Assembly: GCA_902805615.1 (NCBI GenBank)
Contig: CADCTQ010000335.1
Coordinates: 1-35,604 of the forward strand
DNA length: 35,604 nucleotides
Direction: 5' to 3'
From: an uncultured Cytophagales bacterium
Lineage (GTDB): Bacteria; Bacteroidota; Bacteroidia; Cytophagales; 172606-1
The notes below the pieces were generated by a model, which did not search any database, was not told the DNA's origin, and saw only the letters and a list, made by a program, of their open reading frames with translations. Positions 5,201 through 30,300 of this stretch are shown here, piece by piece (positions within the stretch are counted from its first letter, which is position 1; each line of letters opens with the position of its first letter). A program made the translations under genes and the position numbers.

Positions 5201-8200
5201 CTGAGCGGGGCCGTGGGGGCCTGGGTTTCCTTGCGGTTGAGGATGTACTGCACCGACTCGCCGGGGGCCAGCGTCTCGGTGAACGTCAGCGTGTCGCCGC
5301 CGAAATCCACGCGGGAATGGGCCTGCAGGTAGACGTCCCCGCTGCCGTACCGGTCGCCGGTGTAGGTACCGCCGCCCGGCATGGCTACTTTTACCTCCAT
5401 GGTTAGCGTCGAGGTCTCGAAGTTCACGAAGTTCATCAGGTACTTGTCCGACCGCGCACCGGTGACCGACCGTCCCAGTGCGGCGGTGTTGACGGCCCGG
5501 AAGTAGGCTTTTTTGCCGGCCAGGGCGGCCGCGTTCCCGTACACGTACGCCAGCGGTTCGCCGTGGGTGGCGTAGGCCAGCGCCAGGCGGCGGTAGGTGT
5601 TGAGCCGCGACAGGCTGGGGTCGTTGCGGTTGGGCCGCACCCGGGCATTCTCGGGGTTGAGCTTGCTCAGGGCCACGTCGGCCGTCCACATGTTGAAGGG
5701 GGCCGGGTCAAAGTCGGCGTGGTACATGATGTGGTCCACGTAGCCGATGCTGGCCCGCATTTCCCGGTCAAACACGGCGTCGAAGCGGTTTTTGTAGGTG
5801 CCGTACCGGGCGTTGTCGGTGGCGTCGTCGTTGCTGCCGGTTTCACTCATGGCCATGTCCTTGGGGAAACCGTCGCCGGTGTAGTCGGCGTAGGTGCGCA
5901 GGGTTTCTACCAGCGAGCCGCCCAGGCCGCCCACGCCCGAAGTGCTGTAGCTGTGGCCGTTGGTCAGGTCGCTCAGGTCTTCGATGGGCCGGCGCTGGGC
6001 GGGGTCGCGTTCCCAGCCGTTGGGGGTGCCGTTGGTGGGCCAGTACGCCCAGCCGGGGGCTACGATCTTGAGGTGCGGGGCGTACACGGCTTTTTCTTCC
6101 CGGGCCATGCGGGCCACGGCCACGTTGCCCGCCTGCGAGGTGTTGAACAGGCCCGGCTCGTTGGAGATTTCCAGGGCGGCAAACAGGTCGCCGTAGTCGG
6201 CCAGGTACTGCCGGAAGCGCCGCCGGCCGGCTTCGGTCATCGTGCCGCTGCCGGCTTCCCGGTTGATGAAGCCGCCCGGGAAGGTGATCGGCATGGCCAC
6301 CAGGTTCAACTGCTTGAGGGTTTGCAGGTACGCCCGGCGGTCGGCGGTGAGGCCGTCTTCGGCCGTGATGCCGATCCGGATCCAGTTGCCGCTGTAGGCA
6401 ATGCCGCTCCACTTGGAAAGCAGGAAGGCGTTGCGGGCGTTGATCTCGCCGTTCGAACGGAAGTCGTTGCCCAGGTGGACGTACCGGCCGTGGAGGGGTT
6501 CCCGGGCTTTTTCGGCCAGTGTCTTCAACGTTACGTGGTCCCACTCCCACCAGTGGTATTGGTCGCCGGTGTTGTCGGCAAACAGGCCCCGGTCGGCTTC
6601 CAGCTTCAGTTCGTTGACGCCGGTTTTGAGGAATTCTTTGGGAATGTAGAGGCGGTAGGTCTCCTTGAACTTATACGTGAGCCCGTTGCCGTTGAGGCCG
6701 GCAATCTGGATCATCCCCGCCAGGGTGTTGTTGGAGAACACGGCCATCTGGGGCGTGGACTGGAAGGCGTCCAGGATGCGGAAGCTTAGTTCCACCCCGA
6801 ACTCGGGAATCGCCAACAGGTTGTAGGTGAGTTTCAAAGCCCCGTTCTTGTCGAGCTTTAGCCCCTTGGAGATGAGCTTCCAGTCGCTGCGCGTGTTCCA
6901 GTCGGCGGGCACGGCCAGCGAATCGGTGCGCCGGGCCGCGGCGTAGTCGGCAAATTCCGCCGAACGGTTGTCGTCGCGGCCGATGCGCCACAGGACCGTA
7001 CCGGGCACCACGGGTTCGGCCGGGACCGGGCTGATGGTGTAGGCGCCGTTGGCCGAAAGCGGGTAACCGGCCGGCCGGGAGGCCGCGGCATCGGCTTTGA
7101 CGCGTACCTGCACGGCGCCGAAGGCGTACACCTCGTCGCCCACCGGCTGCGGGTTATCCGTCACGGGCTGCCAGGTCTGGCCCTTGTTCACCGAGTATTC
7201 GTAAAAGCCGGCGCCCGGGTACTTGCCCGCATCCGTCCAGGCAAAGGTGTCTTTCGCGTCGTCCACCACGGGGCCGGCGGGCACCACGTCGGCGGCGGGT
7301 TCGAGGCGGAAGTAGTCGTAGTCGGCCCCCTGCGTGTCGCCGAACTCGGTTCTCAGGACGAGGGTGTTGTTCTCATTGGCCCGCAGGGGCAGGAGCTGCT
7401 GGTAGACGGCAAAGCCGTTGCCCGAATTGAGCAGGGTGATTTTGGTCACCTGCCCGTTGACGATCAGGGACTTGACCTTGTTCTCGTCGGCGCGGTAGCG
7501 GATCGAAAGCAGGTACTCCCCGTCCCCGAAGGCGTAGAACGCCGGCAGCGTGAGGGCCGTGGTGGTGGTATTGTTGCCCACTTCCTTGCCCCCGGAAGCC
7601 CCGCTGTTGTTGTAGATTTTGGGAAACTCCGACGTGGCGGCAACCAGGCTTTCGGCCTCGAACAACGGTCCCGCCGGGGCCGACGGTACGGTGGTGGTGG
7701 TCAGCGAACTCCCGGTGGCAAAGCCGTCGGCGTCCCGGGCTTTCACGGTAAAGGTGTAGGTGGTGCCCGCCGCAAGGCCGGACGCGGCGAAGGTGGTTCC
7801 GGTGGTGGAGCCGAGCAGGGTCGTGCCGTTGAGTACGTCGTAGCCGGTTACCCCCACGTCGTCGGTGGCGGCCTCCCAGGCCAGGTCCACGGTGGTGGTC
7901 GTTTTGGCGGTGGCGCGCAGGTTGCCCGGCGCCGACGGGTAGGGCGGCACGAACGGGCTCAGGCGGTTGCCGGGAATGGGTCTTTCCAGGACGGCATCGG
8001 GCAACTGCCAGCCCACCGCCAGGTTATCCCCGCCGGTGGCTTCCTTGCAGAGGGCTTCGATGTAGTACTTGTTGCCGGCCTGCAACGGGATGAGGGCTGA
8101 TTTCTGGGAAGGGAACTTGGTCCACTCGCGGGAAGCGGTGAAGCCGGTCACGGAAGCAATTCTCGTTTTGTTGGCCGGGTCGGCATTGGTGCTCAGCCAC

Positions 8201-9399
8201 AACTCACCGTTGTCGTCGGAAGTCATCCAGAAGGTATAGTTGCCGCTTACCGGCGGACACACGTACCCCCGGATGCGCGTCGCGTAGTTGTCGCCGATGT
8301 TGACGGGGGCTTCGAACGAAGGAATCAAAACGGAGGTATTGGGTACCGTGTTGACGGGAATGCTCGAAATGGCGTTGCCGGCCAGGTTGGTCCACACTTC
8401 CCGCAAGATATTTCCCGTAACGGTGCAGGGCGTCTGCACGGGTACGGTCGTTGCCGTCACGGCCGCACCGGGGGTGGACAACCGCCCCCCGGCGTCCCGG
8501 GCCCGCACGGAGAAGGAAAAGGTGCCGCCCGACCGCAGGCCCGTCACCGTAAACGTAGTGTCGCCGTCGGTGGTGCCGGCCAGGGCCGTGCCGTTGTACA
8601 CGTCGTAGCCCGTGACGGCCACGTCGTCGGTGGCGGCCCGCCAGGCCAGTTGCACCGAAGTGGTTTCCACTGCCACCACCTTCAGGCCCGCCGGGGTCAT
8701 CGGGTATTCGGGCACGAAGGGCGAAAGGCGGCTCCCGGGAATGGGCCGCTCAAAAATGCCGCCGGGCAACTGCCAGCCCACGGCCAGGTTGTCGCCGCCG
8801 GTGGCTTCCTTGGCAACGGCTTCGATGTAGTAGGCCGTTCCCGCTTCGAGGGGGATGGGGGCCGACTGCTGGGAAGGGTACTTGCCCCACTCCCGGGAAG
8901 CAGTAAAGTCGTTGACGGCCGCAATGCGGACCTTGCCGGCCGGGTCGGCGGCCGTGCCCAGCCACAGTTCGCTCTTGTCGTCGGAGGCGATCCAGAACGT
9001 GTAGTTGCCGCTCACCGGCGGGCACAGGTAGCCCCGGATGCGGGTGGCGTAGTTGTCGCCGATGTTGAGCGGCGCTTCGAACAGGGTCAGGTAGTTGATG
9101 CTTTTAGGGGTGGTACTCACCGGCACGTCCGACACGTTCACGCCGGGGATGCCGTCCCAGAACTCGCGCAGGATGGTACCCGTGGCCGCGCAGGGAGCGG
9201 CCGCTGGCCGGGCGGCCCGGTACGGGGAACGCGCTTCCAATGGGACCTTTTTGTCGTCCGCCGGACGGGTGGGCGCCGGTCCGGCCTCCGCGGCCGCCGG
9301 GGCGAAAAGGTGGGCAAAGAGGGCCAGCAATACCAGCAGTTTGTGCCGCGTACGGGTGCTGGGACGGGCAGGATGGGGGGTGTAAGGGTTCAGGTGCAT
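2260..9399 (-). CDS. Giant T9SS-secreted multidomain protein, probable clan GH-A glycoside hydrolase (paralogue 1)
   Basis: The track starts at 9462, but that Met lies inside the terminator of the upstream gene. The Met at 9399 gives a good signal peptide (basic stretch, then LLVLLALFAHLFAPAAAEA). In track numbering the modules are: two PA14-like modules each followed by fibronectin III (about 92-597), a CBM-like 'FEAES' jelly roll (600-722), a galactose-binding-like module starting LWRIGRDD (820-977), a probable TIM barrel (990-1410), FN3, another CBM, a jelly roll, CARDB (1772-1887), three FN3, a CBM6-like domain and a T9SS tail ('VRVYPNPATDRI') ending KVRISR. In the barrel, ISNEPGLF (Glu near 1102) and MSETG (Glu near 1206) fit the acid/base and nucleophile of clan GH-A. 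The substrate is unknown. The gene is last in the susCD locus and its core is nearly identical to the adjacent paralogue. Confidence 0.85.
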   Translation of the reverse strand: MHLNPYTPHPARPSTRTRHKLLVLLALFAHLFAPAAAEAGPAPTRPADDKKVPLEARSPYRAARPAAAPCAATGTILREFWDGIPGVNVSDVPVSTTPKSINYLTLFEAPLNIGDNYATRIRGYLCPPVSGNYTFWIASDDKSELWLGTAADPAGKVRIAAVNDFTASREWGKYPSQQSAPIPLEAGTAYYIEAVAKEATGGDNLAVGWQLPGGIFERPIPGSRLSPFVPEYPMTPAGLKVVAVETTSVQLAWRAATDDVAVTGYDVYNGTALAGTTDGDTTFTVTGLRSGGTFSFSVRARDAGGRLSTPGAAVTATTVPVQTPCTVTGNILREVWTNLAGNAISSIPVNTVPNTSVLIPSFEAPVNIGDNYATRIRGYVCPPVSGNYTFWMTSDDNGELWLSTNADPANKTRIASVTGFTASREWTKFPSQKSALIPLQAGNKYYIEALCKEATGGDNLAVGWQLPDAVLERPIPGNRLSPFVPPYPSAPGNLRATAKTTTTVDLAWEAATDDVGVTGYDVLNGTTLLGSTTGTTFAASGLAAGTTYTFTVKARDADGFATGSSLTTTTVPSAPAGPLFEAESLVAATSEFPKIYNNSGASGGKEVGNNTTTTALTLPAFYAFGDGEYLLSIRYRADENKVKSLIVNGQVTKITLLNSGNGFAVYQQLLPLRANENNTLVLRTEFGDTQGADYDYFRLEPAADVVPAGPVVDDAKDTFAWTDAGKYPGAGFYEYSVNKGQTWQPVTDNPQPVGDEVYAFGAVQVRVKADAAASRPAGYPLSANGAYTISPVPAEPVVPGTVLWRIGRDDNRSAEFADYAAARRTDSLAVPADWNTRSDWKLISKGLKLDKNGALKLTYNLLAIPEFGVELSFRILDAFQSTPQMAVFSNNTLAGMIQIAGLNGNGLTYKFKETYRLYIPKEFLKTGVNELKLEADRGLFADNTGDQYHWWEWDHVTLKTLAEKAREPLHGRYVHLGNDFRSNGEINARNAFLLSKWSGIAYSGNWIRIGITAEDGLTADRRAYLQTLKQLNLVAMPITFPGGFINREAGSGTMTEAGRRRFRQYLADYGDLFAALEISNEPGLFNTSQAGNVAVARMAREEKAVYAPHLKIVAPGWAYWPTNGTPNGWERDPAQRRPIEDLSDLTNGHSYSTSGVGGLGGSLVETLRTYADYTGDGFPKDMAMSETGSNDDATDNARYGTYKNRFDAVFDREMRASIGYVDHIMYHADFDPAPFNMWTADVALSKLNPENARVRPNRNDPSLSRLNTYRRLALAYATHGEPLAYVYGNAAALAGKKAYFRAVNTAALGRSVTGARSDKYLMNFVNFETSTLTMEVKVAMPGGGTYTGDRYGSGDVYLQAHSRVDFGGDTLTFTETLAPGESVQYILNRKETQAPTAPLSLRATPRSFRQVDLSWQPSADNVGVAGYRIYRNGTYLNLAPAAVTFFTDFTVEEATAYSYTVEAFDDSGNQSPRSNPATVTTPAMPVTAGGPVFEAERCIPAGSQFPQAVSNATASNGQMVTNNFTTTRCEIFGFTAVQANYVLTIRYRSTFDSERSVRVNEVLNAGQFSTRIQITNSNNGWKEARQNITLVPGKKNIIAVQVDFGQVQGGEYDYFRLDTGRVAAPQPEWRFVSHTSPAILYTSAFVTNAGGDAHETSRAGENAQMTIKGTGFRWFSNVAADMGLADVYIDNVLDRTVDIPAAALEGPNKLVYEKTGLTDATHTIRIVGKENKRITVSHLEFLGLLGSPVSPGPDLVVTDVKTLPAEPRPGDLLRLVAVVRNRGTLPTPAGITTGVAFSIDGGNVGYSDTYNAAIQPGETVELVQNSDQSWRAPTVDSLTLGAFVNDIGRYAEQDNSNNRLSRRVALNTADGQPPAAPADLAASALTDSTVTLAWTAATDNVAVTGYDVYQDSVKVNAANVTETRFVATGLASARTYRFWVRARDEAGNLSAASRVLVVVTPDTQAPAAPADLAAPARTDSTVTLAWTAATDNVGVAGYDVYRDSVKVNDDPVAETGFTVKGLAASTAYSFHVTATDRAGNASAASAAIAVTTTDTQAPTAPADLTSPARTPYGISLAWTAATDNVGVTAYEVYRDTLRLAVVSGTDYVATGLPAGQGYTFRVRARDAAGNWSAATPELRVMTLPPDSASYEAEAASLYRAAVFSNQPGYSGTGFVKFPSNEGNYVEWTVRASHTGLHRLRFRYANGLKQEQGFALSVNGTTVNPNLVFNFTGSWEQWSFVEATAYLAEGTHRIRLTTTGEKNSNLDLLRVTDPVAPAPSAARTAAAPAPGPAGNRSLPVRVYPNPATDRITIQFTAPSAGKAQVIFTDVLSRSAQSGTYDVQAGPNRIVVPTVALPGGVYLLRVVTGGTQSVQKVRISR
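2967..3790 (-). repeat. Three tandem fibronectin III repeats within giant gene 1
   Basis: Three consecutive FN3-coding units of roughly 270 bp are close to identical in places. The string 'cacgttgtcggtggccgccg' begins at 3421 and again at 3697 (period 276 bp), with a diverged third copy near 3147. This suggests recent duplication of linker modules. The protein motif is 'TDSTVTLAWTAATDNV' in two of the three units. Confidence 0.7.
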
Positions 9400-9488: not shown

Positions 9489-12400
9489 TTACCGGCTGAT
9501 GACAACCTTGAGCGGCGTGACCGAACCGTCATCCGCCACTACGTTCACCAGGTAGAGCCCGGTGGACAATTCCCGGGTGCCGACCACGATCCGGTTGTCG
9601 CCGGCGTGCAACACCTCGTTCACCGCTTTCACGGGGCGGCCCACGGCGTTGGTGAGGGTCACTTTTACGCCTTGTGCCGCCGGCGAGAAGTAGTGCAGGG
9701 TAAACTGGTCGCCGGCCGGGTTGGGATAGAGGCGTACCTCCCCTGCCCCACTGCGGGCTTCGGCCCCCCCGCTGGCGTCCAGCCGGGCGGTTGGCGAACC
9801 GAGTTCCACCAGCGAGAAGTCATCGCCGTAGGCAGCGCCCGAACCCAGGTACTTGTAGAGGAATACCGTGCCGCTGGTGTTCGTCGCGCCGGTGGTAAAT
9901 TCCACGACGGCTTCGCGGTAGGTGGTGCTGCCGATGGTGGCGAACTTGTTGGCCCCGCCGTACGCTTTGATCCCCAGGATCACGGAATCTCCCGCCGTGG
10001 TCACCCGGGCAAAACCCCGCAGTTCGTAGCGGGTGTTCGGCCTGAGGGTCACTACCTGTTCAAGGGTAGCCGGGTTGGCCCCTACCCGGCCGGCGTAGGT
10101 GCCGGTGCGGGCATTGGTGTTGGCGACGCCGGCATCCTGCCAGGTGGTCCAGGGCGTGAGCGTACCCGTTTCGAAGCCGGGGTTCCCGATCAGGTTGGTT
10201 TGCACCGTAGACGTACTGAAGAGCTGGCTCTGGGGAATTACTTGCCTGGCCTGGCTGGCGCTGGCCCATTGCAGGTTGGCCAGGGCACCATTGCCGTTCT
10301 CAAAGTACTCCATGCGGATGGCGTAACGCCGGCCGGCCGTGAGGGCAATGGTGCCGTTCCACTCGGTAGCCCCCTGGCTCACCCACTTGTCCACGAGCAG
10401 CTGGCCGTTCACCCACAGCCGCACGCCGTCGTCGGTGGTGGTGTAGAAGGTGTAGGTCTGGGAGAACCGGGGCAGCACCTCGCCCGTCCAGCGCGCGGAG
10501 AAGGTCTCTCCGGCAATGCCCGGGTCGGGCGAACCGGTTCCCCAGTTGAAGTTCACCGTCTTGTCTATCCGGCTGAGCTTGAACTCGGTCAGGTACATCG
10601 AGTCGTAGTATTCACCCTTCAGGCCGTCGCCCGGCGCGGGGGTGCTGAAAAGCTGGCTCTGGGGAATCACTTGCTTGGGCTGGCTGGCGCTCGACCATTG
10701 CAGCGTAGCCAGGGCGCCGGCCGTGTTCTCGAAGTACTCCATGCGGATGGCGTACCGCTGGCCGGCCGTGAGGGCAATGGTGCCGTTCCACTCGGCGGCC
10801 GCCTGGTTCACCCACTTGTCCACGAGCAGTTGGCCGTTCACCCACAGCCGTACGCCGTCGTCGGTGTTGACGAAGAAGGTGTAGGTCTGCGAATACCGGG
10901 GCAGGACTTCGCCGGTCCAGCGCACCGAATACGTATCAACCCCTATCGTCGAGGCGGGTGAACCCGTGCCCCAGTTGAAGTTGACGGTCCGGTCCACGCG
11001 ACTCAGCTTGAAGGCCGTCAGGTCCATGTTGTCGTAGTACTCACCCTTCAGGCCGTCGCCGCCGCCGCCGGCCGGGCCCACGGTCACCGCGTTGCTGGCC
11101 GCCGACTGGTTGCCGGCGCGGTCAACCGCTCTTACCGTGTACACGTAACTGCCGCCGGCCGCCAGCCCCCGGTCGGTGTACGTGGTGGCGGTCGTGGGCG
11201 TCGCGTTCACTTTGACGGCATCGCGGTACACGTCGTAGCCTTTCAACTCCACGTCGTCGGTGGAAGCGTTCCAGGAGAGCACCACCGTGCTGTCGGTGCG
11301 GTTGCTGCTGATCAGGCTGGCCGGCGCGGTGGGCCGGATGGTATCGGCAAAACCGATGTAGAGCGGTTCGCTGTAGCGGTTGTTGGTGCGGTCCTGCTCG
11401 GTGTACCGCCCGATGTCATTTACGAACGCCTCCACCCGCACGTTCACGTTGGGCGGCCCGGTCCAGGTCTGGTTCTGCGCCAGTTCCACCGACTCGCCGG
11501 GCTGGATCGCCGCCGTGTACGTATCCGAGAAGCCGGTGCTGCCGCCGTCCACGCTGAACAGCACGCCCGTGGTGATCCCGGCCGGCGTGGCCAGGGTGCC
11601 CCGGTTCTGGGCCACGGCCACGAACCGGATCTGGTCGCCGCCCCGCGGGTTGGCCGGCACGGTTTTGATGTCGGTCACCACCATGTCGGGGCCCGGGGCC
11701 ACCGGGCTGCCGAGGATGCCCAGGAACTCCAGGTGGCTCACGGTGATGCGCTTGTTCTCCTTGCAGACGATCTTGATCGTGTGCGTGGCGTCGGTGAGGC
11801 CGGTCTTTTCGTAGACCAGCTTGTCGGGCCCTTCAAAGGCGGCGGACGGGATGTTGACCGTGCGGTCGAGCACGTTGTCGATGTACACGTCGGCCGTGCC
11901 CATGTCGGAGACCACGTTGGAGAACCAGCGGAAGCCGGTGCCCTTGATGGTCAGTTGCGCGTGTTGCCCGAGGGTGGCCGTTTCGTGGGCGCTGCCCGCG
12001 GTGTTGTTGAGGAAGGCCGGCGTGTACAGCACCGAGGAACTGGTGTGGCTCACGAAGCGCCACTCGGGCTGCGGGGCGGCCACCCGGCCGGTATCGAGCC
12101 GGAAGTAATCGTATTCCCCGCCCTGGGTCTGGCCGAATTCCACCTGCACGGCAATGATGTTCTTCTTGCCCGGCACCAGGGTAATGTTCTGCTGCACTTC
12201 CCGCCAGGCGTTGTTGCTGTTGACGAGTTGAATCTGGCCGAAGAACTGCCCCGCGTTGAGCACTTCGTTGACCCGGATGTTGCGGGGCGAATCGAAGGTG
12301 GAGCGGTAGCGGATGGTGAGCACGTAGTTGGCCTGCACGGCCGTGAAACCGAAAATCTCGCAGCGGGTGGTGGTGAAGTTGTTGGTCACCATCTGCCCGT

Positions 12401-15400
12401 TGGAGGCGGTGGCGTTGCTCACCGCCTGCGGGAACTGCGAACCGGCCGGAATGCACCGTTCGGCTTCGAAGATCGGGCCGCCGGCCGTCACGGGCATGGC
12501 GGGCGTCGTGACCCCGGCCGTGTTGCTGCGGAGCGACTTGTTGCCCGAATCGTCGAAGGCTTCCACCGTGTAGTTGTAGGTGGTGGATTCTTCCACGGTA
12601 ATGTCGGTGAACACGTTCAGGGCAGCGGGTACCACGTTGATGGACACCCCGTTGCGGAAGATGCGGTAGCCCGACACGGCCACGTTGTCGGAGGAGGGCC
12701 GCCAGGCCAGGTCCACCTGCCGGAACGAACGGGCGGTGGCCGTGAGCGTGGCCGGCGGGGTGGGCACCTGGGTTTCCTTGCGGTTGAGGATGTACTGCAC
12801 CGACTCGCCGGGGGCCAGCGTTTCGGTGAACCTCAGCGTATCGCCGCCGTGTTCCACCCGCGAAACGGCTTCCGAATACACGTCCCCGTTGCCGTACCGT
12901 TCCCCCGTGAAGGTGCCGCCGCCCGGCATGGCTACCTTCACCCGCAGCGTCAGGGTCGAGGTTTCGAAGTTGACGAAGTTCATCAGGTACTTGTCGGAAC
13001 TGGCCCCGGTGCTGGCGCGGCCCAGCGTGGCCGTGTTGACGGCCCGGAAGTAGGCTTTCTTGCCGGCCAGTTCGGCCGCATTCTCGTACAGGTAGGCCAG
13101 CGGTTCGCCGTGCGTGGCGTAGGCCAGCGCCAGGCGGCGGAACGTCTTGAGGCGGGGCTGGGCGGGCTCCCGGCGGTTGGGCCGCACCTGGGCGTTCTCG
13201 GGGTTCAGTTTTCCGGTCGCCACGTCGGAGACCCACATGGTGAAATTGCCGGGCGAAAAGGCGGCGTGGTACATGATGTGGTCCACGTAGCCGATGTTGC
13301 CCCGCATCTCCCGGTCGAACACGGCGATGTAGCGGTTGGCGAAGGTGCCGTAGCGGTTGTCGTCGGCGGCGTCGTCGTTGGCCCCGGTCTCGCTCATCAC
13401 CATGTCTTTGGGGAAACCGTCGCCGGTGTAGCTGTCGTAGGTGCGCAGCGTTTCCACCAGCGAGCCGCCCAGGCCGCCCACGCCCGAGGTGCTGTAGCTG
13501 TGGCCGTTGGTCAGGTCGCTGATTTCCTCAATGGGGCGGCGCTGGGCGGGGTCGCGTTCCCAGCCGCTGGGAATGCCGTTGGTGGGCCAGTACGCCCAGC
13601 CGGGGGCCACCACCTTCACGTGCGGGGCGTAGGCGGGTTTTTCGGCCTGGGCCATCTCCACAATGGCTTTGGTGCCCACCTGCGAGGAGCCGAACAGGCC
13701 CGGTTCGTTTTCGGTTTCCACCGCCGCCAGCAGGTCGCCGTAGTTGGTCAGGTAGTCGCGGTAGCGCTGCCGCACGGTGGTGTTGATGGTGCCGGCCAGC
13801 ACGTCGCTGCTGCGGGTGGTGCTGCCCTCGAACGGGATGGTCATCGGCAGGATGTTCAACTGGCGCATCGTGAGCAGGTAGGCGCGGATGCCCGGGTTGA
13901 ACGACTGGGTGATGTCGGCCCCGTCGCGCATCCAGTTGCCGCTGTAGGCAATGCCGCTCCACTTGGAAAGCAGGTACGCCGACCGGGCGTCGAAGTACGG
14001 GTCTTCGCGGAAGTCGTTGCCCATGTGGACGTACCGGCCGTGGAGGGGCTCCCGGGCTTTTTCGGCCAGTGTCTTCAGGGTCACGTGGTCCCACTCCCAC
14101 CAGTGGTACTGGTCGCCCGAGTTGTCGGCAAACAGGCCCCGGTCGGCTTCCAGCCGCAGTTGGTTGACGCCGGTTTTGAGGAATTCTTTGGGAATGTAGA
14201 GGCGGTAGGTCTCCTTGAACTTGTAGGCGAGGCCGTTGCCGTTGAGGCCGGCAATCTGGATCATCCCCGCCAGGGTGTTGTTGGAAAACACGGCCATCTG
14301 GGGCGTGGACTGGAAGGCGTCCAGGATGCGGAAGCTCAACTCCACGCCGAACTCGGGAACCGCCGACAGGTTATAGGTGAGTTTCAAAGCGCCGTTCCGG
14401 TCGAGCTTGAGCCCCTTGGCAATGATCTTCCAGTTGGTGCGCGTACTCCAGTCGCCCGGTACGGCCAGGGAGTCGGTACGCCGGGTGGTGGCGTAGTCGG
14501 TGAATTCGACCGAGGAGTTGTCGTCCCGGCCCAGCCGCCAGAGGACGGCGCCCGGCACGATGGGCGGGCCGGAAACGGTGGTGATCGTATACGCCCCGTT
14601 GGCGGAAAGCGGGAAGCCGGCCGGGCGGGAGGTTGCCGCGTCGGCTTTGAGGCGCACCTGCACGGCGCCGTAGGCGTACACCTGGTCGCCCACCGGCTGC
14701 GGCTTGGCCGTGACGGCCTGCCAGGTCTGGCCCCGGTTCACGGAGTATTCGTAGTTGGCAATGCCCGGGTACCGGGGAATGTCCGTCCAGGAGAAGGTGT
14801 TGGTGGCGTCGTTGACGACCGGGTTGGTCGGCATCACGTCGGCGGCCAGTTCGAGGCGGAAGTAGTCGTAGTCGGCGCCCTGCGCGTCGTTGAAGTCGGT
14901 CCGGAGCACAATCGTGTTGTTCTCGCTGGCCCGCAGTTGCAGGAGTTGCTGGTAGATGGCAAAGCCGTTCCCGGAGTTAGCGAGGGTGATGCGGGTGGTG
15001 ACCCCGTTGACGACCAGCGACTTGGCCTTGTCTTCGTCGGAGCGGTAGCGGATCGCAAACACGTACTGCCCGTTGCCGAAGGCGTAGAACGGCGGCAGCG
15101 TGAGGGACGTGGTGGTGGTATTGTTGCCGACTTCCTTGCCGCCCGAAGCCCCGCTGTTGGCGTAGACCTTGGGAAACTCCGAGGTGGCGGCGATCAGGTT
15201 TTCGGCTTCGAACAGCGGACCGGCCGGCGCGGTGGGCACGGTGGTGGTGGTCAGCGTGGCGGGAGTGGATGCCCGGCCGTCGGTGCCCTTGGCTTTCACG
15301 GCAAACGTGTACGTGGTGCCGGCCGTCAGGCCCGTCGCCTGGTAGGTGGTGCCGGCGGTGGTGGTGAGCGAATCGGCGCCCCGGTACACTACGTACCCGC

Positions 15401-16151
15401 TGATGCCGGCGCTGCTCGTGGAAGCGTTCCAGGCGAGGCTTACGGAAGTGCCGGTTTTGGCCGTGTAGCGCAGGTCGCCCGGCGCGGTCGGGTACTCGGG
15501 TTCGAACGGTGAAAGGCGGCTCCCGGGAATGGGCCGCTGCTGGGTGCCGTCGGGCAACTGCCAGCCCACGGCCAGGTGGTCGCCGCCGGTGCCTTCTTTG
15601 TGCAGGGCCTCGATGTAATAGGCCGTTCCGGCCTGCAAAGCGATGGGCGCCGACTGCTGGGAAGGAAATTTGCCCCACTCCCGGGAAGCGGTAGAGCCGG
15701 TCACGGAAGCAATGCGGACCTTGCCGGCCGGGCTGGCACTCGTGCTCAGCCACAGTTCGCTCTCGTCGTCGGAAGCAATCCAGAAGGTGTAATTGCCCGT
15801 GGCGGGCGGACAGACGTATCCCCGGATGCGCGCGCCGTAATTGTCGCCGGTGTTGGTGGGCGACTCAAAAGAGGTAATGTACCCGTTGCTGCCCGGCGTC
15901 GTGTTTACGGGAATCGCCGTGACGGCCGTACCCGCAATGCCGTTCCACTGTTCGCGCAGGATGGTGCCCGTGGCGGCGCAGGGCACGGCCTGGGCCGACA
16001 CGGCCGACTTGTTGGTTCGCGCCAGCAAACGGGTATATCGTTTGGTGCCGGCCAGGGTCACCAGGCCCAGGGCCGTAATGAGCAGCAGGGCCCCCAGGTT
16101 GCGGAGGGTCAGCCGGGAAAAAGTTCGTGGAGGCGTAAATTGTTGAGACAT
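9489..16151 (-). CDS. Giant T9SS-secreted multidomain protein, probable clan GH-A glycoside hydrolase (paralogue 2)
   Basis: I place the start at 16151 (MSQQFTPP), 10 codons inside the track ORF, just ahead of a hydrophobic signal-anchor-like segment (LGALLLITALGLVTLAG). Modules in track numbering: PA14-like (63-227), FN3 (230-313), CBM-like 'FEAEN' (320-443), a galactose-binding-like module opening LWRLGRDD (547-702), a probable TIM barrel (710-1137), FN3, CBM, jelly roll, CARDB (1493-1608), FN3, two classical PA14 domains in tandem (1708-1988), a CBM4/9-like domain opening NLIGNPGFETG (1992-2127), and a T9SS tail ('VRLYPNPAGDQF') ending KVVISR. ENEPGLF (Glu near 824) and MSETG (Glu near 929) are the likely catalytic acids, spaced about as in paralogue 1. 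It lies directly downstream of susD. It probably acts on a polysaccharide at the cell surface, but the family and substrate were not identified. Confidence 0.85.
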   Translation of the reverse strand: MSQQFTPPRTFSRLTLRNLGALLLITALGLVTLAGTKRYTRLLARTNKSAVSAQAVPCAATGTILREQWNGIAGTAVTAIPVNTTPGSNGYITSFESPTNTGDNYGARIRGYVCPPATGNYTFWIASDDESELWLSTSASPAGKVRIASVTGSTASREWGKFPSQQSAPIALQAGTAYYIEALHKEGTGGDHLAVGWQLPDGTQQRPIPGSRLSPFEPEYPTAPGDLRYTAKTGTSVSLAWNASTSSAGISGYVVYRGADSLTTTAGTTYQATGLTAGTTYTFAVKAKGTDGRASTPATLTTTTVPTAPAGPLFEAENLIAATSEFPKVYANSGASGGKEVGNNTTTTSLTLPPFYAFGNGQYVFAIRYRSDEDKAKSLVVNGVTTRITLANSGNGFAIYQQLLQLRASENNTIVLRTDFNDAQGADYDYFRLELAADVMPTNPVVNDATNTFSWTDIPRYPGIANYEYSVNRGQTWQAVTAKPQPVGDQVYAYGAVQVRLKADAATSRPAGFPLSANGAYTITTVSGPPIVPGAVLWRLGRDDNSSVEFTDYATTRRTDSLAVPGDWSTRTNWKIIAKGLKLDRNGALKLTYNLSAVPEFGVELSFRILDAFQSTPQMAVFSNNTLAGMIQIAGLNGNGLAYKFKETYRLYIPKEFLKTGVNQLRLEADRGLFADNSGDQYHWWEWDHVTLKTLAEKAREPLHGRYVHMGNDFREDPYFDARSAYLLSKWSGIAYSGNWMRDGADITQSFNPGIRAYLLTMRQLNILPMTIPFEGSTTRSSDVLAGTINTTVRQRYRDYLTNYGDLLAAVETENEPGLFGSSQVGTKAIVEMAQAEKPAYAPHVKVVAPGWAYWPTNGIPSGWERDPAQRRPIEEISDLTNGHSYSTSGVGGLGGSLVETLRTYDSYTGDGFPKDMVMSETGANDDAADDNRYGTFANRYIAVFDREMRGNIGYVDHIMYHAAFSPGNFTMWVSDVATGKLNPENAQVRPNRREPAQPRLKTFRRLALAYATHGEPLAYLYENAAELAGKKAYFRAVNTATLGRASTGASSDKYLMNFVNFETSTLTLRVKVAMPGGGTFTGERYGNGDVYSEAVSRVEHGGDTLRFTETLAPGESVQYILNRKETQVPTPPATLTATARSFRQVDLAWRPSSDNVAVSGYRIFRNGVSINVVPAALNVFTDITVEESTTYNYTVEAFDDSGNKSLRSNTAGVTTPAMPVTAGGPIFEAERCIPAGSQFPQAVSNATASNGQMVTNNFTTTRCEIFGFTAVQANYVLTIRYRSTFDSPRNIRVNEVLNAGQFFGQIQLVNSNNAWREVQQNITLVPGKKNIIAVQVEFGQTQGGEYDYFRLDTGRVAAPQPEWRFVSHTSSSVLYTPAFLNNTAGSAHETATLGQHAQLTIKGTGFRWFSNVVSDMGTADVYIDNVLDRTVNIPSAAFEGPDKLVYEKTGLTDATHTIKIVCKENKRITVSHLEFLGILGSPVAPGPDMVVTDIKTVPANPRGGDQIRFVAVAQNRGTLATPAGITTGVLFSVDGGSTGFSDTYTAAIQPGESVELAQNQTWTGPPNVNVRVEAFVNDIGRYTEQDRTNNRYSEPLYIGFADTIRPTAPASLISSNRTDSTVVLSWNASTDDVELKGYDVYRDAVKVNATPTTATTYTDRGLAAGGSYVYTVRAVDRAGNQSAASNAVTVGPAGGGGDGLKGEYYDNMDLTAFKLSRVDRTVNFNWGTGSPASTIGVDTYSVRWTGEVLPRYSQTYTFFVNTDDGVRLWVNGQLLVDKWVNQAAAEWNGTIALTAGQRYAIRMEYFENTAGALATLQWSSASQPKQVIPQSQLFSTPAPGDGLKGEYYDSMYLTEFKLSRIDKTVNFNWGTGSPDPGIAGETFSARWTGEVLPRFSQTYTFYTTTDDGVRLWVNGQLLVDKWVSQGATEWNGTIALTAGRRYAIRMEYFENGNGALANLQWASASQARQVIPQSQLFSTSTVQTNLIGNPGFETGTLTPWTTWQDAGVANTNARTGTYAGRVGANPATLEQVVTLRPNTRYELRGFARVTTAGDSVILGIKAYGGANKFATIGSTTYREAVVEFTTGATNTSGTVFLYKYLGSGAAYGDDFSLVELGSPTARLDASGGAEARSGAGEVRLYPNPAGDQFTLHYFSPAAQGVKVTLTNAVGRPVKAVNEVLHAGDNRIVVGTRELSTGLYLVNVVADDGSVTPLKVVISR
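10204..11055 (-). repeat. Tandem PA14 duplication (429-bp unit) within giant gene 2
   Basis: Two adjacent PA14-coding units are offset by 429 bp: 'ctgaagagctggctctgggg' at 10216 and 'ctgaaaagctggctctgggg' at 10645. They remain very similar at DNA level throughout. At protein level both read GLKGEYYD..., VNFNWGTGSP, DDGVRLWVNGQLLVDKWV and VIPQSQLFS. Paralogue 1 has no counterpart at this place, so the duplication belongs to this gene. Confidence 0.8.
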
Positions 16152-16508
16152 AAACGGGGGGTAGTGTTGAACGTAATACAATCAGGTTACAGGCTTTTTG
16201 GGCTGCTATCGTATAATCTCATGTTGAATAAATCCTATTTTTTCTCCGCAAAGGAAGTACTCTCCCAGTAGCTGCTCCTGGAGAAGCAGCCCGGGCAAGA
16301 CGAACCGTACGCAAGGGAACCGGCATGACTGCCTTCAGCGAAAGGCGGCTAAAAAACGCAGTCCCCGGCGGGCAAGAGGGTAACCCGCCGGGAAGCAGCG
16401 CCGCCTCGGTCAATCAGGTTGGAGAATCAAACGGGGCACGCAAGGGTACTGTCATTTTTCTTTCCATAGCGGGTATTTTCTCACGCAAATCCTATTCTTT
16501 TAGTACTC
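16152..16508. other. Intergenic region between susD and the giant genes
   Basis: No protein-like ORF is present. It contains two copies of an AAATCCTATT(T/C)TTT phrase (near 16227 and 16486), a small hairpin (GCTGCT...AGCAGC, 16271-16290) and the perfect stem-loop listed separately at 16364-16392. I found no convincing TAnnTTTG promoter for the giant gene. TTCCTTTG near 16250 on the minus strand is one base off the consensus but lacks a spaced TTG. Confidence 0.45.
16351..16392 (-). terminator. Possible terminator downstream of susD
   Basis: CCCGGCGGG / CCCGCCGGG form a perfect 9-bp stem with an 11-nt loop (16364-16392). On the minus strand a T6 run follows 7 nt after the stem. The delayed T-run makes it a weaker call than the other terminators. 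It lies about 215 bp beyond the susD stop and would give transcriptional polarity between susCD and the giant genes. Confidence 0.4.
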
Positions 16509-16613
16509 GGTATTAGGGATTAGGGATTAGGGTATTGGTGGTGCCCGGCGGCGCTGCTGCCCCAATCCCTCATTACCCCAATACCCAATACCCAATCCTT
16601 AATCCCTAATACC
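16509..16613. repeat. Inverted repeat of TTAGGGA-type units overlapping the susD stop codon
   Basis: The left arm (16509-16538) reads GGTATTAGGGATTAGGGATT then AGGGTATTGG. The right arm (16585-16613) is its near-perfect reverse complement, with about two differences. Extra CCAATACCC units lie at 16574-16590. The loop is about 46 nt. The right arm covers the last codons and TAG stop of susD (16606-16608). GGGATTAGGGATTAGGG strings are, from memory, common intergenic repeats in Cytophagales. The RNA could fold into a long hairpin that protects the susCD message or ends it. Confidence 0.75.
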
Positions 16614-18138
16614 CGTTGTTCTGCGTCATGGCGGGGTTGAGTTGGATTTCGTTGGTGGGGATGGGCATGGCCTGGTGAATGCCCGGCGTAAAGCCCCGGG
16701 GGGTGAGCAGGTCGTCGGCAACGCCCCAGCGCAGCAGGTCAAACCAGCGGTGGCCTTCCCCGCACAGTTCGAGGAACCGTTCGTCGCGGATGGCCTGCCG
16801 CAGTTCCGCCGCACCGGCCACGGTTCGGTCGGCCTCCGGCGAAGGGGTGCCCGGGCTGAGCCCGTAGGCCCGGCGGCGCACCTTGTTCACGTATTCGAGG
16901 GCCACGGTGGCGTTGCCCCTTTCGAGCTGCGCCTCGGCGTACATCAGGTACACGTCGGCCAGCCGCATCAGGGGCATGTTGATCTCGTTGTTGAACAGCC
17001 CCGGGCCCGTGTTGACGGCGCTGCGGTCGGCGCGGATGAACTTCTTGGGCGAGTACCCCGTGCCGTTGGTATTCTTGTAGGGCTGCCAGTTGGCATTGTC
17101 GCCCATTTTCACGCTGTCTTTGCCGGGAATGAACGCCGTGTGGCGCAGGCGGGGGTCGGTGCCGAACTGCGTGACGGTGGCCGGCGACAGGCTCACGTTG
17201 CCCCAGCCCAGCGGGTCGGGGGCGTGGCGGGTGGCGTAGGCGTGGCCCGGCCCGCCGTCCCACGACATCATGGGGGACTTGTCGGAGAACTGCACCTCGA
17301 AGATGGATTCGGGGCTGTTTTCGGCTTTGCCGTTGAAATTGTCGCCGTAGTTGGGCAACAGGCTGTAGGCGGGGTTGCCGATGACTTCCTCGAACTTGGC
17401 CGCGGCCCCTTCCCAGTTCTGCTGGTACAGGTACACCTTGCCCAGGTACGCCGTGGCGGCGCCTTTGGTCACGCGGCCCAGCCCGTTGCCCGTCCAGGCC
17501 ACCGGCAGCAGTCCCTCGGCCGTCCGCAGGTCGGCAATGACCTGGGCGTACACTTCACTGACCGGGGCCCGCTTCACGTACATCTGGTCCCGGTTCACCG
17601 GCGTGCCGGTCACCACCGGGAAGCCCGGGGCGGCCCCATCCACGATCACCGGCTGCTGCCCCCAGATGTTGACGCCCAGGAAGTGGGCAAAGGCCCGGAT
17701 GAAATACGCCTGCCCAAGGATGTATTCCTTGTTCTGTTGAGTGATCTGCTCGGGCACCTTCATCTTCTCCACGTTTTCGATCACGTCGTTGGACCGCAGC
17801 ACCATTTTGGCCACGCCGTACCACGCCGAGCGGAGGGTGGCATTTTCGGAGGAGACGCTGAACTGCTTGATCTCGTTCCAGCCGGCGTCGCCCTTCCACA
17901 CCAGGTCGTACTCGTCGGTGATCTGGTGGAGGAAAAAGTGGATCTGGTCGCCCCACAGGTCAATGTCCTTGAGCGGCGCGTACACCCCCGTCAGGGCCAG
18001 GTTGGCATTGTCGGTGTCCACGTAGAGCGAGGAGGCGCCCAGGTTGTTGGGGTCGGGCGTCTCGAGGAACTCATCTTTGCAGCCCGGGGCGGCCAGCAGG
18101 GTAATCAGCAGGGGGGTAAGTATATAGCGTTTTTTCAT
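16606..18138 (-). CDS. SusD/RagB-family outer-membrane glycan-binding lipoprotein
   Basis: The track ORF starts at 18303, but the lipoprotein signal begins at the internal Met at 18138 (MKKRYILTP...), with the lipobox APG-C followed by KDEFLE, which is typical of SusD. The mature protein is about 490 aa, the usual length. The N-terminal TPR-like helices are followed by SusD landmarks such as AYFIRAFAHF, 'AKFEEVI', the 'LMRLADVYLMYAEAQLERGN' region and a C-terminal 'RDERFLELCGEGHRWFDLLRWG'. It would sit on the outer face of the outer membrane as the lid of the SusC transporter and deliver oligosaccharide to it. The start lies 37 bp after the susC stop, so the two are co-transcribed. The stop codon falls inside a TTAGGGA-type inverted repeat. 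Confidence 0.93.
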   Translation of the reverse strand: MKKRYILTPLLITLLAAPGCKDEFLETPDPNNLGASSLYVDTDNANLALTGVYAPLKDIDLWGDQIHFFLHQITDEYDLVWKGDAGWNEIKQFSVSSENATLRSAWYGVAKMVLRSNDVIENVEKMKVPEQITQQNKEYILGQAYFIRAFAHFLGVNIWGQQPVIVDGAAPGFPVVTGTPVNRDQMYVKRAPVSEVYAQVIADLRTAEGLLPVAWTGNGLGRVTKGAATAYLGKVYLYQQNWEGAAAKFEEVIGNPAYSLLPNYGDNFNGKAENSPESIFEVQFSDKSPMMSWDGGPGHAYATRHAPDPLGWGNVSLSPATVTQFGTDPRLRHTAFIPGKDSVKMGDNANWQPYKNTNGTGYSPKKFIRADRSAVNTGPGLFNNEINMPLMRLADVYLMYAEAQLERGNATVALEYVNKVRRRAYGLSPGTPSPEADRTVAGAAELRQAIRDERFLELCGEGHRWFDLLRWGVADDLLTPRGFTPGIHQAMPIPTNEIQLNPAMTQNNGY

Positions 18139-25302: not shown

Positions 25303-27273
25303 ATGCCCATTCCAGAAGCAGTGCGAAGACTAACGGTCGGTTTATCCGTGTACCCCCACCCGGAAATGCACCGGTACGGGCTGCGGGACATCCATTTTTT
25401 CGACTACTCCCTGGAACTGGCGCCCTATTTATTCAGCATGGGGGCTAAAATTGCCCTTTGCCTGGAATGGACGGATGACACCGTCAGCCACCTGTACCGG
25501 CCCCTGGCGGAAATTGCCCGAAATTATGCGCCCGACGACGAAGGGGCTACGGCTCCCATCCTTTGCCTGGTGCCCTCGTTACCCGGCCCCTACCAGTCCC
25601 TGGCGGCATCCCTGCAAGACGTGCTGGAACTGGTGGTAGTGGATGCGGCAGCCGTGGTTGCCTCGGGGGTATTTGCGCATTACCAGCAAGCAGTTAATCC
25701 GCCCGTGCCGGTACAGGCCACCCCTGCCGCCGCGGTACGGGTCCAGTTCATTGAGTCCATTGATGCCCACATTGTGGCCGGAGGGGCCTTTTCGGAAGAG
25801 GACGGCGGGGTTGTGGAAGCGTTTTGCCTGGCGCTCTGGCAGCGCAAACCGGTTTACCTGCTGGGCGGTATGGGCGGAGGCGCCGGGGCCCTGGTGGACC
25901 TTCTTTTTGCCGGGCAGCGTAAGGCTTTGGTTACGCAGACCGGGCAAGCCGTTCCCCCAACCTACCAAGCGTTTTTACGCAAGTACACCGGGGGGAAAAG
26001 CATGGCGTCGGTTTTATCGAATCAACTGGGCGAGCCGGAAAACCGGGTTCTGTTTCAATCCATGAGCAATGTAGAACTGGCCGGGCTACCACTCAAGGGA
26101 TTATCCCGTTTCAATGCCCGGCGCACCGGAATATGGGAAAGACAATTCACGTCCGGCGAAGACCGCACGGCCGACCTCGATTTTTTGCTCCACCACGCAG
26201 CCGGAAATAAACAATATACGGCGTACTGTTTGCACCAACTTTTAAAGATTAGCAACAGCATCAGCCTCTATCCCCAGGTGCTGGAGGAGATTAGCCGGAT
26301 GGGCCCCCAAGCGGCGACTGCCCTCAAGGAGGCATTGGCAGACCAGGACCAGGACATCCGGCGAATGACAGTGGTAGCACTGGGGCAACGTGGCATGAGC
26401 ACAAAGCCCGCTGTTACTGCCTTGATAGAAGCGCTCAAGGATGAAGATGAAATGGTACGCTTTTACGCCGCCGAAGCCTTAGGACGAATCGAAACGGCTG
26501 CTCAGCCAGCCGTTCCTGCCTTAGCAGAAGCGCTCAAGGATGAAGATGAGAGGGTACGTTCCTCTGCCGCCCAAGCCTTAGGACGAATCGGAGGGGAAGC
26601 GGTGACTGCCTTGGCAGAAGCGCTCAAGGATGAAGATGAAATGGTACGCTCTTCTGCCGCCGAAACTTTAGGACGAATCGAAACGGCTGCTCTGCCTGCC
26701 GTTCCTGCCTTGGTAGAAGCGCTCAAGGATAAAGCTAAATCGGTACGCTCCTACGCCGCCCAAGCCTTGGGAGGAATCGGACCGGTTGCTCAGCCAGCGG
26801 TTCCTGCCTTGGTAGAAGCGCTCAAGGATAAAGATGAAGGGGTACGCTCTTCTGCCGCCCAAGCCTTGGGAGGAATCGGACCGGTTGCTCGGCCAGCCGT
26901 TCCTGCCTTGATAGAAGCGCTCAAGGATAAAGATGAAGGGGTACGCTCCTCTGCCGCCGAAGCCTTAGGACAAATCGGAGGGGAAGCGGTTAAAGCTTAT
27001 CTTACCAACCTGGCGAAAAGTTTGACAAGTGGAAGCAGCGAGACCAGGGCCGCTACTGCGCGGGAGTTAGGCATTATTGTCCCGTTACTGCAAAAGCATG
27101 TTCGGGAAGATGCTCTCCGTAAAAGCATTGATAGCATTGTTATTATACTGTCCGAAGTAGCAGAATATGATGAAGAAAGCAAAGTACGTTCTTCCGCTGA
27201 AAAAGCTTTGGAAAATATCACCGGGCCCAGTGGCAGGCATCAGCCTCAGGAAGTTCCCAGCCCGGTGCATTGA
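25303..27273 (+). CDS. SLOG-domain protein with C-terminal HEAT repeats, candidate signal sensor
   Basis: 656 aa. The N-terminal part (about 8-215) looks like a SLOG (SMF/DprA-LOG) Rossmann fold: 'TVGLSVYPHP', 'YSLELAPYLFSMGAKIAL', then HIVAGGAFSEEDGGVVEAF and KPVYLLGGMGGGAGALV. The two glycine-rich turns are where this fold binds nucleotides. A linker of about 120 residues is followed by one weaker HEAT unit and six nearly identical HEAT/PBS-lyase units (about 376-566, core EALKDEDEMVRSSAAEALGRI), then a short cap. In Thoeris the SLOG domain of ThsA binds a TIR-made ADP-ribose signal; here it may sense the product of the upstream TIR protein and act through the HEAT surface. I see no separate effector domain in the chain. 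The start is 8 bp after the upstream stop, implying translational coupling. SLOG is a motif-based call and needs a profile search. Confidence 0.72.
   Translation: MPIPEAVRRLTVGLSVYPHPEMHRYGLRDIHFFDYSLELAPYLFSMGAKIALCLEWTDDTVSHLYRPLAEIARNYAPDDEGATAPILCLVPSLPGPYQSLAASLQDVLELVVVDAAAVVASGVFAHYQQAVNPPVPVQATPAAAVRVQFIESIDAHIVAGGAFSEEDGGVVEAFCLALWQRKPVYLLGGMGGGAGALVDLLFAGQRKALVTQTGQAVPPTYQAFLRKYTGGKSMASVLSNQLGEPENRVLFQSMSNVELAGLPLKGLSRFNARRTGIWERQFTSGEDRTADLDFLLHHAAGNKQYTAYCLHQLLKISNSISLYPQVLEEISRMGPQAATALKEALADQDQDIRRMTVVALGQRGMSTKPAVTALIEALKDEDEMVRFYAAEALGRIETAAQPAVPALAEALKDEDERVRSSAAQALGRIGGEAVTALAEALKDEDEMVRSSAAETLGRIETAALPAVPALVEALKDKAKSVRSYAAQALGGIGPVAQPAVPALVEALKDKDEGVRSSAAQALGGIGPVARPAVPALIEALKDKDEGVRSSAAEALGQIGGEAVKAYLTNLAKSLTSGSSETRAATARELGIIVPLLQKHVREDALRKSIDSIVIILSEVAEYDEESKVRSSAEKALENITGPSGRHQPQEVPSPVH
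26425..27000 (+). repeat. Six near-identical tandem HEAT-coding repeats (99/90 bp)
   Basis: Repeat units begin at the 'gaagcgctcaagga' string at 26428, 26527, 26617, 26716, 26815 and 26914. The spacings are 99, 90, 99, 99 and 99 bp. The units share long identical runs at DNA level, including synonymous positions. The shorter unit lacks three codons and has GGEAV in place of the TAAQPAV-type turn, as does the last one. It is an in-frame protein-coding repeat, not a CRISPR array. Confidence 0.9.
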
Positions 27274-27317: not shown

Positions 27318-30300
27318 TCAGTCGAACGCGGCAAGCAGGGCAGATGCATCAATGACGCCGTAGCCCTGCCCCCGGTCCCAACGCCCGTTGTTGTTCTGCG
27401 TCTTCTGGAGAAGGGTGGAAATAATCTGGCTGCCGCTGGGGATTCTCCCTGCCTTCGCTGCCCGTGAAAGCAGTAATGCGATGGCGCCGGCAACGTGCGG
27501 AGCCGCCATGCTGGTGCCACTTTTGAGGGACACGTCCTGATCGGTGCCGCCTTCGGCCGCCCGAACCTGCACGCCCGGCGCACAGACAAGCGGCTTTTTC
27601 TGCCCGTCGCGGGTGGGGCCGTACGAAGAGAAACCACCCACCCGGATCGGCTTGAACGCGTCCACTGCGCCCACCGTGACCACGCTCTGTGCGGTTCCGG
27701 GAATGCTGAGCGTCATTTCCTCGTCTACGAAAGTCAGGAACGAGGTGGGCTCACCCGGACTGCGTTCGATCCAGCAGTGCACTTCTCCGCTGTCCCGAAC
27801 GGTCCCGCTGCGCATTTCGAGCGCCCAATCCCCCTGGCCCGCCGCGCGGGCCGGGTTACCCAGTTCGATCAGCAACTGGCTGTCGCCGTTATCAATATGG
27901 CGCTTGGTGAAGACCAGGCGATACGGGCTACCCCCGGGAAATGTTCCCTGGCGCTCAGGCGCCGCAGTGCCCACCCAATCCGACCAGTTTTCGGGTGGAT
28001 CAGGGGCAGGCGGTGTGGTTCCGGGCGGAACCGGCTGACGCAACCGGAATTCGATCTCGTCGGCACTGCTCCACCACAGCTCGATGCGCTCGGTGCGGCC
28101 TGCTTCCGGCGCCCGTCGCCAGCGTAACTCCTCCTGCGAGCCGGGCGGCAGGGTGACCTTGGCGTGGCCGCGCTTGTCGCGTTCATTCCCTGCTGACTTC
28201 ACCACCACGCGGCCTGGCTTACGCCCGGATTCGGAGAAGGCGTCGAATGCTACTTCGAGCGCCGACTTGCCGTCGTGCGCCCCGGCGTTCATGCCCTGAC
28301 TTACGTTTACGACCACGGGCAGGCCGAGGCTGGTCGCGAAGGTGTTGATGAAGGCAAGCGCCTCGACGTGGCTCTGCGAATAGCCAATCGGTCCGCTGCT
28401 GGCTGATACGATGATCAGCAGTTTCGCATCCGGAGCGACGCCGCCGAAGAAGTCCCCCACGGCCCGGCCCCCCGCAATGCTTGCCACGTGCGTTCCGTGT
28501 CCCCCACGGTTGCGTCCCAGGCCCGGAGGCACGATTCCCGTCTTCACGTAACCGTCAATCGCCCCTGCATCGTGAAACGTTCCGTAGGTGAATCCTTCCG
28601 GAGGGGGACCACCCGCAGCGGTTTGATCCCATATGCCCACGATGCGCGAGTTCCCATCGGCACCGAGAAACGTCTCGTGGAGCACATCAATGCCGTTATC
28701 AATCACTGCGATCAACGCCTGGTCACCCCGCTCCTTGTACGTGCCGGCCACGTGGGCATATTCGTCAGCTACTTTGATGAATGGCACTGACCGGTCACAT
28801 TCGATCTGTCCGGCGGGTCGGCTCTCCTCGATTGAAATTACCTGCGGATCGGCGAGCAGTTCTCTGACGCTTGCGTCCGAGCCGCGTGCGGAGAGGATTT
28901 TGCCCAGGCGCGAATGGATTACAAGGTCGGTAATGCCTGCGGGCTCCCGGGCGGCGTCTCCCAGCCGGATGAGCAGGGGTCTGGTTGGGGCGGGCGGCGC
29001 AACCGACTTTGACGAGAAGTCTTGCGCCGGGATGGGGTGAACCGTCACCTTGCCGGCGCGGTAGCGTTCCACGGTGCTGCGCAGGCGGGCGAGGAGGGCC
29101 GCCCCGGGTGAGGTGCGGTCCAGTTGGAGAACCTGGTCGTACTGGCGGAAGGTTGAAGACACTTCGAACGTCGTCATGTCCGGATGGTGGATGTACACGT
29201 CAAGGGCCCGCCCGGCCTCTTCGTATTGGTCGAGCGCCAGCAATGCTTCGACCCGCGATGCACAGTCCCACACAGCCAGGGGCGCATTTTGCGCAAGTTG
29301 ATCGAGATCCTCCACGATCTGCCGGGCAATCTCCCGGGCCCGGCCGGGTGGTGCGGCGTTGATGCCGTCGCGTTCTGCCCGCAGCATGCAACTCGCCGCG
29401 TTCACCCCGTGCCAGAAGTTGCCCGGGTCCTCCACGTATGCGGTTTCGTAGGCCGCAATGGCCTGGCGGAGCAACTCGTCTGCGCCGGGTGCGGCCGGCG
29501 CGTTCACGTAGCGTTGTTTGAAGGTACGACCGACCAGGCCGCGGGCCTCGAAGAGTTCCTGCCGCGAGGCGTTTGGGTCATCAATGATTGACTGGAGCAC
29601 GCGGAGGGCAGGGTCGTATTGCCCGGTTTCAATGAGTGCCTGACCGAACAGGCGTCGAACGCCGTCCTGTCTCGTTCCGGATGCAATCACCGCCTCCCCG
29701 TACCGGCGCATCAGCTCGAATGCACGCTCCCGGCGCAGCTTCTGCAGATCGTTGTAGGCATGTTGTGCGGGGTAGGCATACGGACGGTGTTTGAGATGGC
29801 TAACGATGGCGTCAACCAGTGCCTCCGCACTCACGTGGTCGTGCCGGGCGGTCGCCCGGGCAAGCGCGGCGGTGAAAATTTCCTCGTTCCATTCGATGCG
29901 CCGGGCGTTGGCCGGTACCCTCGTTTCAAACCCGCCACTTCCAACGGGTGGCAGCAGGCCGGCGAGCAGGCGTTTGGCTTGCTCTTCCCCCTCCTCCGCC
30001 GTGAAGTCGGCCTTGGGCAGCACCCAAAGCCTCGCCGGCAGCCGGGCTGCCTCCTGCTCGTCGAGGGCCGCGATCTGAACCACGATCAGGGTGCGCCGGT
30101 CGGCTAGTGCAATGTCAATCTCGCCGAGCGGTACCGTCGAGGCGAGGAGCGCCGGGGAAAGGATGATCAGTACGGCCTGGCATTGGTTCATTGCCTGCAC
30201 AATTGCGTGCCCACTGGCGTCAGCACCGGCCACCTGGGGTCTTGCCAGCCAGTATTCGTAGCCGTTGCTGGGCAGACCCCTCAGCACGCGCTCCTTTAAG

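Follow-up and report, generated by a model that had tools for sequence, protein, structure and literature searches.

The window, a stretch of 35,604 nt from the draft genome of an uncultured Cytophagales bacterium, contains a susD gene with a gene for a SusC-like TonB receptor upstream of it and a giant PA14/fn3 gene downstream (Table 1). Sequence analysis of the window revealed an inverted repeat at 16509-16613 that overlaps the end of susD, its two arms being separated by 46 nt. On the susD strand it is predicted to fold into a stem of about 28 bp interrupted by single-nucleotide bulges, with a minimum free energy (MFE) of -55.3 kcal/mol (z = -2.85), and none of 200 shuffled sequences folded equally well. 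The inverted repeat is thus real, and the original prediction was right that it overlaps the susD end, that its right arm carries the susD stop codon and that a hairpin can form. The right arm also bears a G-quadruplex sequence motif on the susD-sense strand, and additional CCAATACCC units at 16578-16597. Eight matches to GGGATTAGGG with at most one mismatch occur in the window, where 2.5 are expected, and six of these lie within the hairpin. The GC-rich core between the arms aligns to a class found elsewhere in the genome (class A, see below) with a score of 14, the 99% random bound being 11. For the adjacent spacer (16250-16508), a second match in the genome was not found.

Table 1. Features at the 3' end of susD and in its downstream neighbourhood (window coordinates)
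Feature	Position	Strand	Remarks
Downstream giant PA14/fn3 gene	9489-16151	-	Domain matches
Remaining spacer between hairpin and giant PA14/fn3 gene	16152-16508	.	No terminator-like site
Left arm	16509-16538	+	G-rich on + strand, GGTATTAGGGATTAGGGATTAGGGTATTGG; units GGGATTA / GGGTATT
Class-A GC-rich core	16537-16563	+	GGTGGTGCCCGGCGGCGCTGCTGCCCC; window copy short of core by 3 nt
Right arm	16564-16613	-	C-rich on + strand, G-rich on susD-sense strand (GGGTATTAGGGATTAAGGATTGGGTATTGGGTATTGGGGTAATGAGGGATT); paired stem 16585-16613
susD stop codon TAG	16606-16608	-	Within right arm
susD gene	16606-18138	-	SusD_RagB and SusD-like_3 domains

The further claim, that a repeat-derived sequence had replaced the natural 3' end of susD, is not supported and has to be corrected. 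The protein ends with ...MTQNNGY (longer stretch ...IPTNEIQLNPAMTQNNGY), the last codons being GGG TAT TAG. The closest susD relatives found, both 53% identical, are from a Flammeovirgaceae MAG (L015) and a Fulvivirga MAG (L016); they end with ...MIQNDGY and ...MVQNNGY, respectively, in both cases with the codons GGC TAT TAG, and neither has a repeat after the stop codon. Related genes with such an ending and no repeat are what the original prediction had named as its refutation. QNPGY, QNDGY and QNEGY are common ends of more distant SusD proteins, and SusD paralogs encoded in the same genome end with QNKGF and QNPAYQ. A second copy of the susD 3' region for comparison was not found in the genome; a 92% identical copy on contig C75 covers the N-terminal part only. 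GGG TAT TAG is therefore an ordinary, inherited SusD ending, which by coincidence matches the repeat unit GGGTATTAGGG.

The hairpin at the susD end is one of roughly 200-250 similar G-rich repeat sites in the genome. Copies were counted by pattern searches of the genome (8.77 Mb; 694 contigs, 6.29% contamination) and in 100 contigs (1.12 Mb) sampled without bias, genes being called with a home-made, simple codon-usage caller. When as many as 3 mismatches were allowed, the commoner arm form GGGTATTAGGGTATTGGGG gave 173 genome matches versus 4 for the reversed pattern, in agreement with the earlier description of the sequence as repeat-derived. The sample held 33 arm loci versus 4 reversed-pattern control loci, which extrapolates to about 258 loci per genome, or about 230 after subtraction of the control rate. 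Although coding sequence makes up 79% of the sample, every one of the 33 loci is intergenic, an outcome with a chance probability of about 2e-23. A G/C-rich spacer that holds an inverted repeat merely by chance or composition could be suspected, as the exact 17-mer GGGATTAGGGATTAGGG from the window has just 1 copy in the genome (14 places with up to 2 mismatches). The two controls, the intergenic restriction and a polarity shared by 24 of 24 complete elements (see below) have already refuted this explanation, and we give it practically no chance. A telomere-like reading of TTAGGG is likewise rejected, since the unit has 7-8 nt and its copies occupy interstitial, intergenic sites. A literature search with the unit sequence returned only chance matches in unrelated papers.

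A complete element consists of an array of 7-8 nt units of the form GGG(T)ATT(A/G), a short cargo sequence, and an array of complementary units. The spacing of G-runs has its mode at 7 nt, followed by 8 nt; 192 of 253 runs are at least 3 G long, and the most frequent linkers are TATT, ATTA, ATT and TATTA. In the set of 24 complete elements, which were partly picked via matches to the class-A core so that class shares are biased, 12 including the window copy share the class-A core (consensus GGTGGTRCCCAGCGGCTGCGCTGATACC), a near-palindrome of the form CAGCG-GCTG-CGCTG. The remaining elements have other cores, of a GTACGCG...GTACC type or a GCATTTACTTGTCGCGCATT type, and some arms surround a larger AGGAACCACCCC...AAGGAGGGG element. 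A four-run canonical G-quadruplex motif is present on at least one strand in 18 of the 24 elements, versus 1.9 +/- 1.4 in dinucleotide shuffles.

As a separate observation, a second, larger nested palindrome, AGGAACCACCCCCGGCCCCTCCTTG...CAAGGAGGGGCCGGGGGTGGTTCC, is common, being represented by 25 half-sites in the 1.12-Mb sample (0 in the control), often between G-rich arms (L031:19419-19574, L043:2731-2889, L085, L098 and others).

Dispersed intergenic palindromes in inverted arrangement recall REP/REPIN elements and their RAYT transposases, and the class-A palindrome might be a REP that a Y1 (RAYT) transposase mobilises, with the G-rich arms as its flanks. The core is indeed a dispersed near-palindrome (11 genome matches with up to 3 mismatches, 0 reversed), and the genome encodes 5 Y1_Tnp proteins. 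However, neither arm nor core motif occurs in the flanking sequence examined for four of the 5 Y1 genes, these four bear their own, different palindromes, and the same arms enclose unrelated cores. The arms are also built of tandem 7-8-mers in variable number, unlike the fixed 20-40-bp palindrome of REP/REPIN elements (PMC3116915, PMC3733652), from which the lack of a link to the four Y1 genes is a second difference. On the four loci examined we reject the RAYT/REPIN connection, and hold such an origin to be very improbable.

The polarity of the elements is strict. Read on either strand, the G-rich array precedes the cargo and the C-rich array follows it in all 24 elements, with no C-first case (p = 1e-7), and 25 of the 27 single arrays in the 1.12-Mb sample obey the same rule, the nearer gene being the one 5' of the G-rich array (p = 6e-6). 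A plain hairpin does not account for this, because it would work equally well with the C-rich arm first, and neutral slippage alone leaves the G-first order unexplained. One conceivable source is template switching during replication of a G-rich array, by which the array folded back and created its inverted partner, a process that would produce G-first polarity and would agree with its strictness in two species with differing unit dialects (see below). Against this, alignment scores between the two arms of an element do not significantly exceed those between arms of different elements (p = 0.056), so that any fold-back event would have to date far back or have been obscured by exchange of units, and we regard this origin as improbable. 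Native arm pairs also fold no better than arms swapped among elements (MFE p about 0.20), so that the data demonstrate neither an exact fold-back origin nor selection on the individual bases of each hairpin.

Elements are found in all gene contexts at rates near the spacer background: the flanking genes are on the same strand for 18 of the 24, divergent for 5 and convergent for 1. At the 18 same-strand loci, the gap on the stop side, with a median of 1 nt, is shorter than that on the start side, with a median of 69.5 nt (Wilcoxon p = 0.003), and at 16 of them the arm edge overlaps the upstream stop codon or is located within 15 nt of it, so the clustering of copies at gene ends that had been proposed as a check was indeed found. 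The single convergent element (L197) spans the whole gap between two stop codons, and four others (L003, L056, L089, L093) occupy the stop-to-start gap almost exactly.

This placement at stop codons (16/18) could reflect maintenance of the hairpin, or of an RNA G-quadruplex formed by its 5' arm, as a dedicated 3'-UTR element that protects the susCD mRNA or uncouples it from the giant downstream genes. The stability of the hairpin (-55 kcal/mol, z = -2.85) would fit such a role, as would the polarity, by which a G-rich array leads in any transcript ending there, and most of the Xanthomonas (Xac) repeats discussed below are transcribed (PMC4692102). On the other hand, a divergent gene pair flanks 5 of the 24 elements, which is near the spacer background, swapped arms are equally stable, and the two orthologous spacers compared in relatives are devoid of the G-rich repeat. 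A U-tract, as would follow the G+C-rich hairpin of an intrinsic terminator, is also missing, there being no terminator-like site in 16000-16900. An Rfam search gave nothing above the gathering score, with only sub-threshold microRNA-hairpin matches. We consider a selected role of this kind unlikely, while granting it some real chance of being correct, and the data favour repeat turnover that fills spacers over a susCD-specific regulator.

Turnover of the units can be seen at two homologous loci (L003 and L072), the flanking genes of which are 94.5% and 96.2% identical. Within the element itself, 103 of 126 aligned bases are identical, and there are gaps of 4 and 7 nt; given the draft state of the genome and its contamination, the two loci may represent strains rather than paralogs. 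Units therefore turn over faster than the genes change, and the growth by slippage that had been suggested from the window is supported insofar as these indels show gain and loss of units.

The family is not shared evenly with relatives. Arm matches number 0 in congener G001 and 11 in congener G002, and no other genome among 396 of the phylum has more than one. The G002 copies use a GGTATTA/GGTACTG dialect, and are G-first in 8 of 11 cases, with one array type detected in 2 and a mixed arrangement in 1. The spacer before ruvA holds AATTGTC-type repeats in G001 and is plain and about 30 nt long in G006, while the spacer orthologous to L089 has a different palindromic repeat in both congeners. 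In a check for a transposon or MITE, these two orthologous spacers showed other repeats or a short plain spacer, and no clean empty site. Different species thus have different repeats in their spacers.

The palindromes in the congeners' L089-orthologous spacers (L224, L223) are of the type GATTCAGGCGTCCACGCCTGAAT. Palindromes resembling them, TTCAAGCGTGGACGCTTGAA, flank a Y1 locus (L213) of the genome studied here.

We interpret the hairpin at the susD end as a member of a family, amplified in this species, of intergenic inverted arrays of G-rich heptamers and octamers, the units of which turn over and spread to the edges of coding sequences, an interpretation to which we assign a probability of roughly two in three. 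The family and its architecture, polarity, intergenic restriction, stop-flush edges and unit turnover are observed directly; the dynamics are suggested by the unit indels, the stop-flush edges and the species-specific turnover. Each element consists of two facing arrays of about GGG(T)ATT(A/G) units around a short, interchangeable cargo, which at the susD end is a degenerate, GC-rich class-A palindrome. Through slippage or recombination, units in the arrays would be gained, lost or swapped, and the arrays would expand across non-coding spacers as far as the next coding sequence; the outer edge would so often be found at a stop codon because spreading halts there. At susD, the arm may have reached a natural ...GGG TAT TAG ending that already fitted the unit. 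If transcribed, the 3' UTR of the susCD mRNA is predicted to open with a G-quadruplex-capable array, followed by the hairpin of about 28 bp. A slowing of 3'-5' decay or of RNA polymerase is a probable side effect of this structure, which would not be a dedicated susCD switch; any effect of the RNA hairpin or G-quadruplex on transcript ends would be at most a general one.

The closest described kind is that of the G-quadruplex heptamer repeats GGGAATC and GGGGA(C/T)T, reported from Xanthomonas and Nostoc by Rehm et al. 2015 (PMC4692102). These are dispersed and overwhelmingly intergenic, vary in length among related genomes, and in Xanthomonas often form convergent (G-first) inverted pairs; copies on the coding strand overlap stop codons or are found within 50 nt of them, and those on the non-coding strand are close to starts (PMC4692102). 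The present family resembles them in its G-rich heptameric units with G-runs of at least 3 (spacing mode 7; 192/253), its intergenic bias (33/33 sampled loci), its convergent G-first pairs (24/24), its stop-side placement (16/18 within 15 nt) and its variation in length. It differs in its unit, GGGATTA / GGG(T)ATT(A/G) with 7- and 8-mers mixed as opposed to GGGNATC or GGGGAYT, in its Bacteroidota host, and in the conserved cargo cores between arrays. While 83% of the repeat sites are common to Xcc and Xac (PMC4692102), the family described here is amplified in one species of its genus. G-quadruplex formation in the Xanthomonas/Nostoc type is a matter of CD spectra; the present family is enriched in the sequence motif (18/24 vs 1.9 in shuffles). 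As the unit sequence differs and enclosed cores are additional, we regard the family as a variant of the Xanthomonas/Nostoc type and not, by sequence, a member of it. Looser kin are the TAACTGA repeats (MacGregor 2015; PMC4679880), intergenic repeats of some Bacteroidetes and Cyanobacteria among others. Like the present family they form short heptamer arrays in spacers and are sometimes missing from the orthologous spacers of close relatives, but the heptamer is another one, and they are direct, almost never inverted, and mostly located just upstream of starts (PMC4679880).

The poorly understood G-quadruplex-capable heptamer repeats are hereby extended to a Bacteroidota genome, in which the polarity and the close association with stop codons are the same. 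With species that have about 200-250 sites, a few or none, the genus offers a direct test of where such repeats come from and what they do. A bolder idea, to which we would give only a small chance, is that a general polar process marks spacer edges whatever the heptamer dialect of the species: the left-hand gene would be followed by a G-rich array pointing outwards from it, an exchangeable cargo and then the complementary array leading up to the right-hand gene, and whole spacers would become hairpins bounded by stop and start codons. If true, the polarity shared with Xanthomonas (PMC4692102) would point to a convergent, genome-wide phenomenon with common machinery.

Other repeats and unusual genes were noted in passing. 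An inverted heptamer family with TTGGTCA arms and its own conserved core, ATTCGGATGCGGYRACTTACGC, is also GG-first (L032:14931-15029, L045:963-1033). A 29-nt hairpin, GTTCTTTTTGG-CATTGCC-CCAAAAAGAAC, has 16 copies in the 1.12-Mb sample (0 in the control), several of them at contig ends; examples are at 1670-1698 in the window, L045:3964-3992 and L042:11-39. The giant PA14/fn3 gene downstream of susD and a second one at 2260-9399 (-) are tandem relatives in which some blocks are about 94-95% identical at an offset of 7547-7550 nt and others near 79%, a pattern suggestive of patchy gene conversion. At 26405-26990, within an ORF of 656 aa (25303-27273, +), direct repeats recur every 99 nt, the copies being 82-87% alike. 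A protein of 1008 aa encoded at 27318-30344 (-) combines TIR, TPR-S and subtilase (Peptidase_S8) domains in a defence-like layout.
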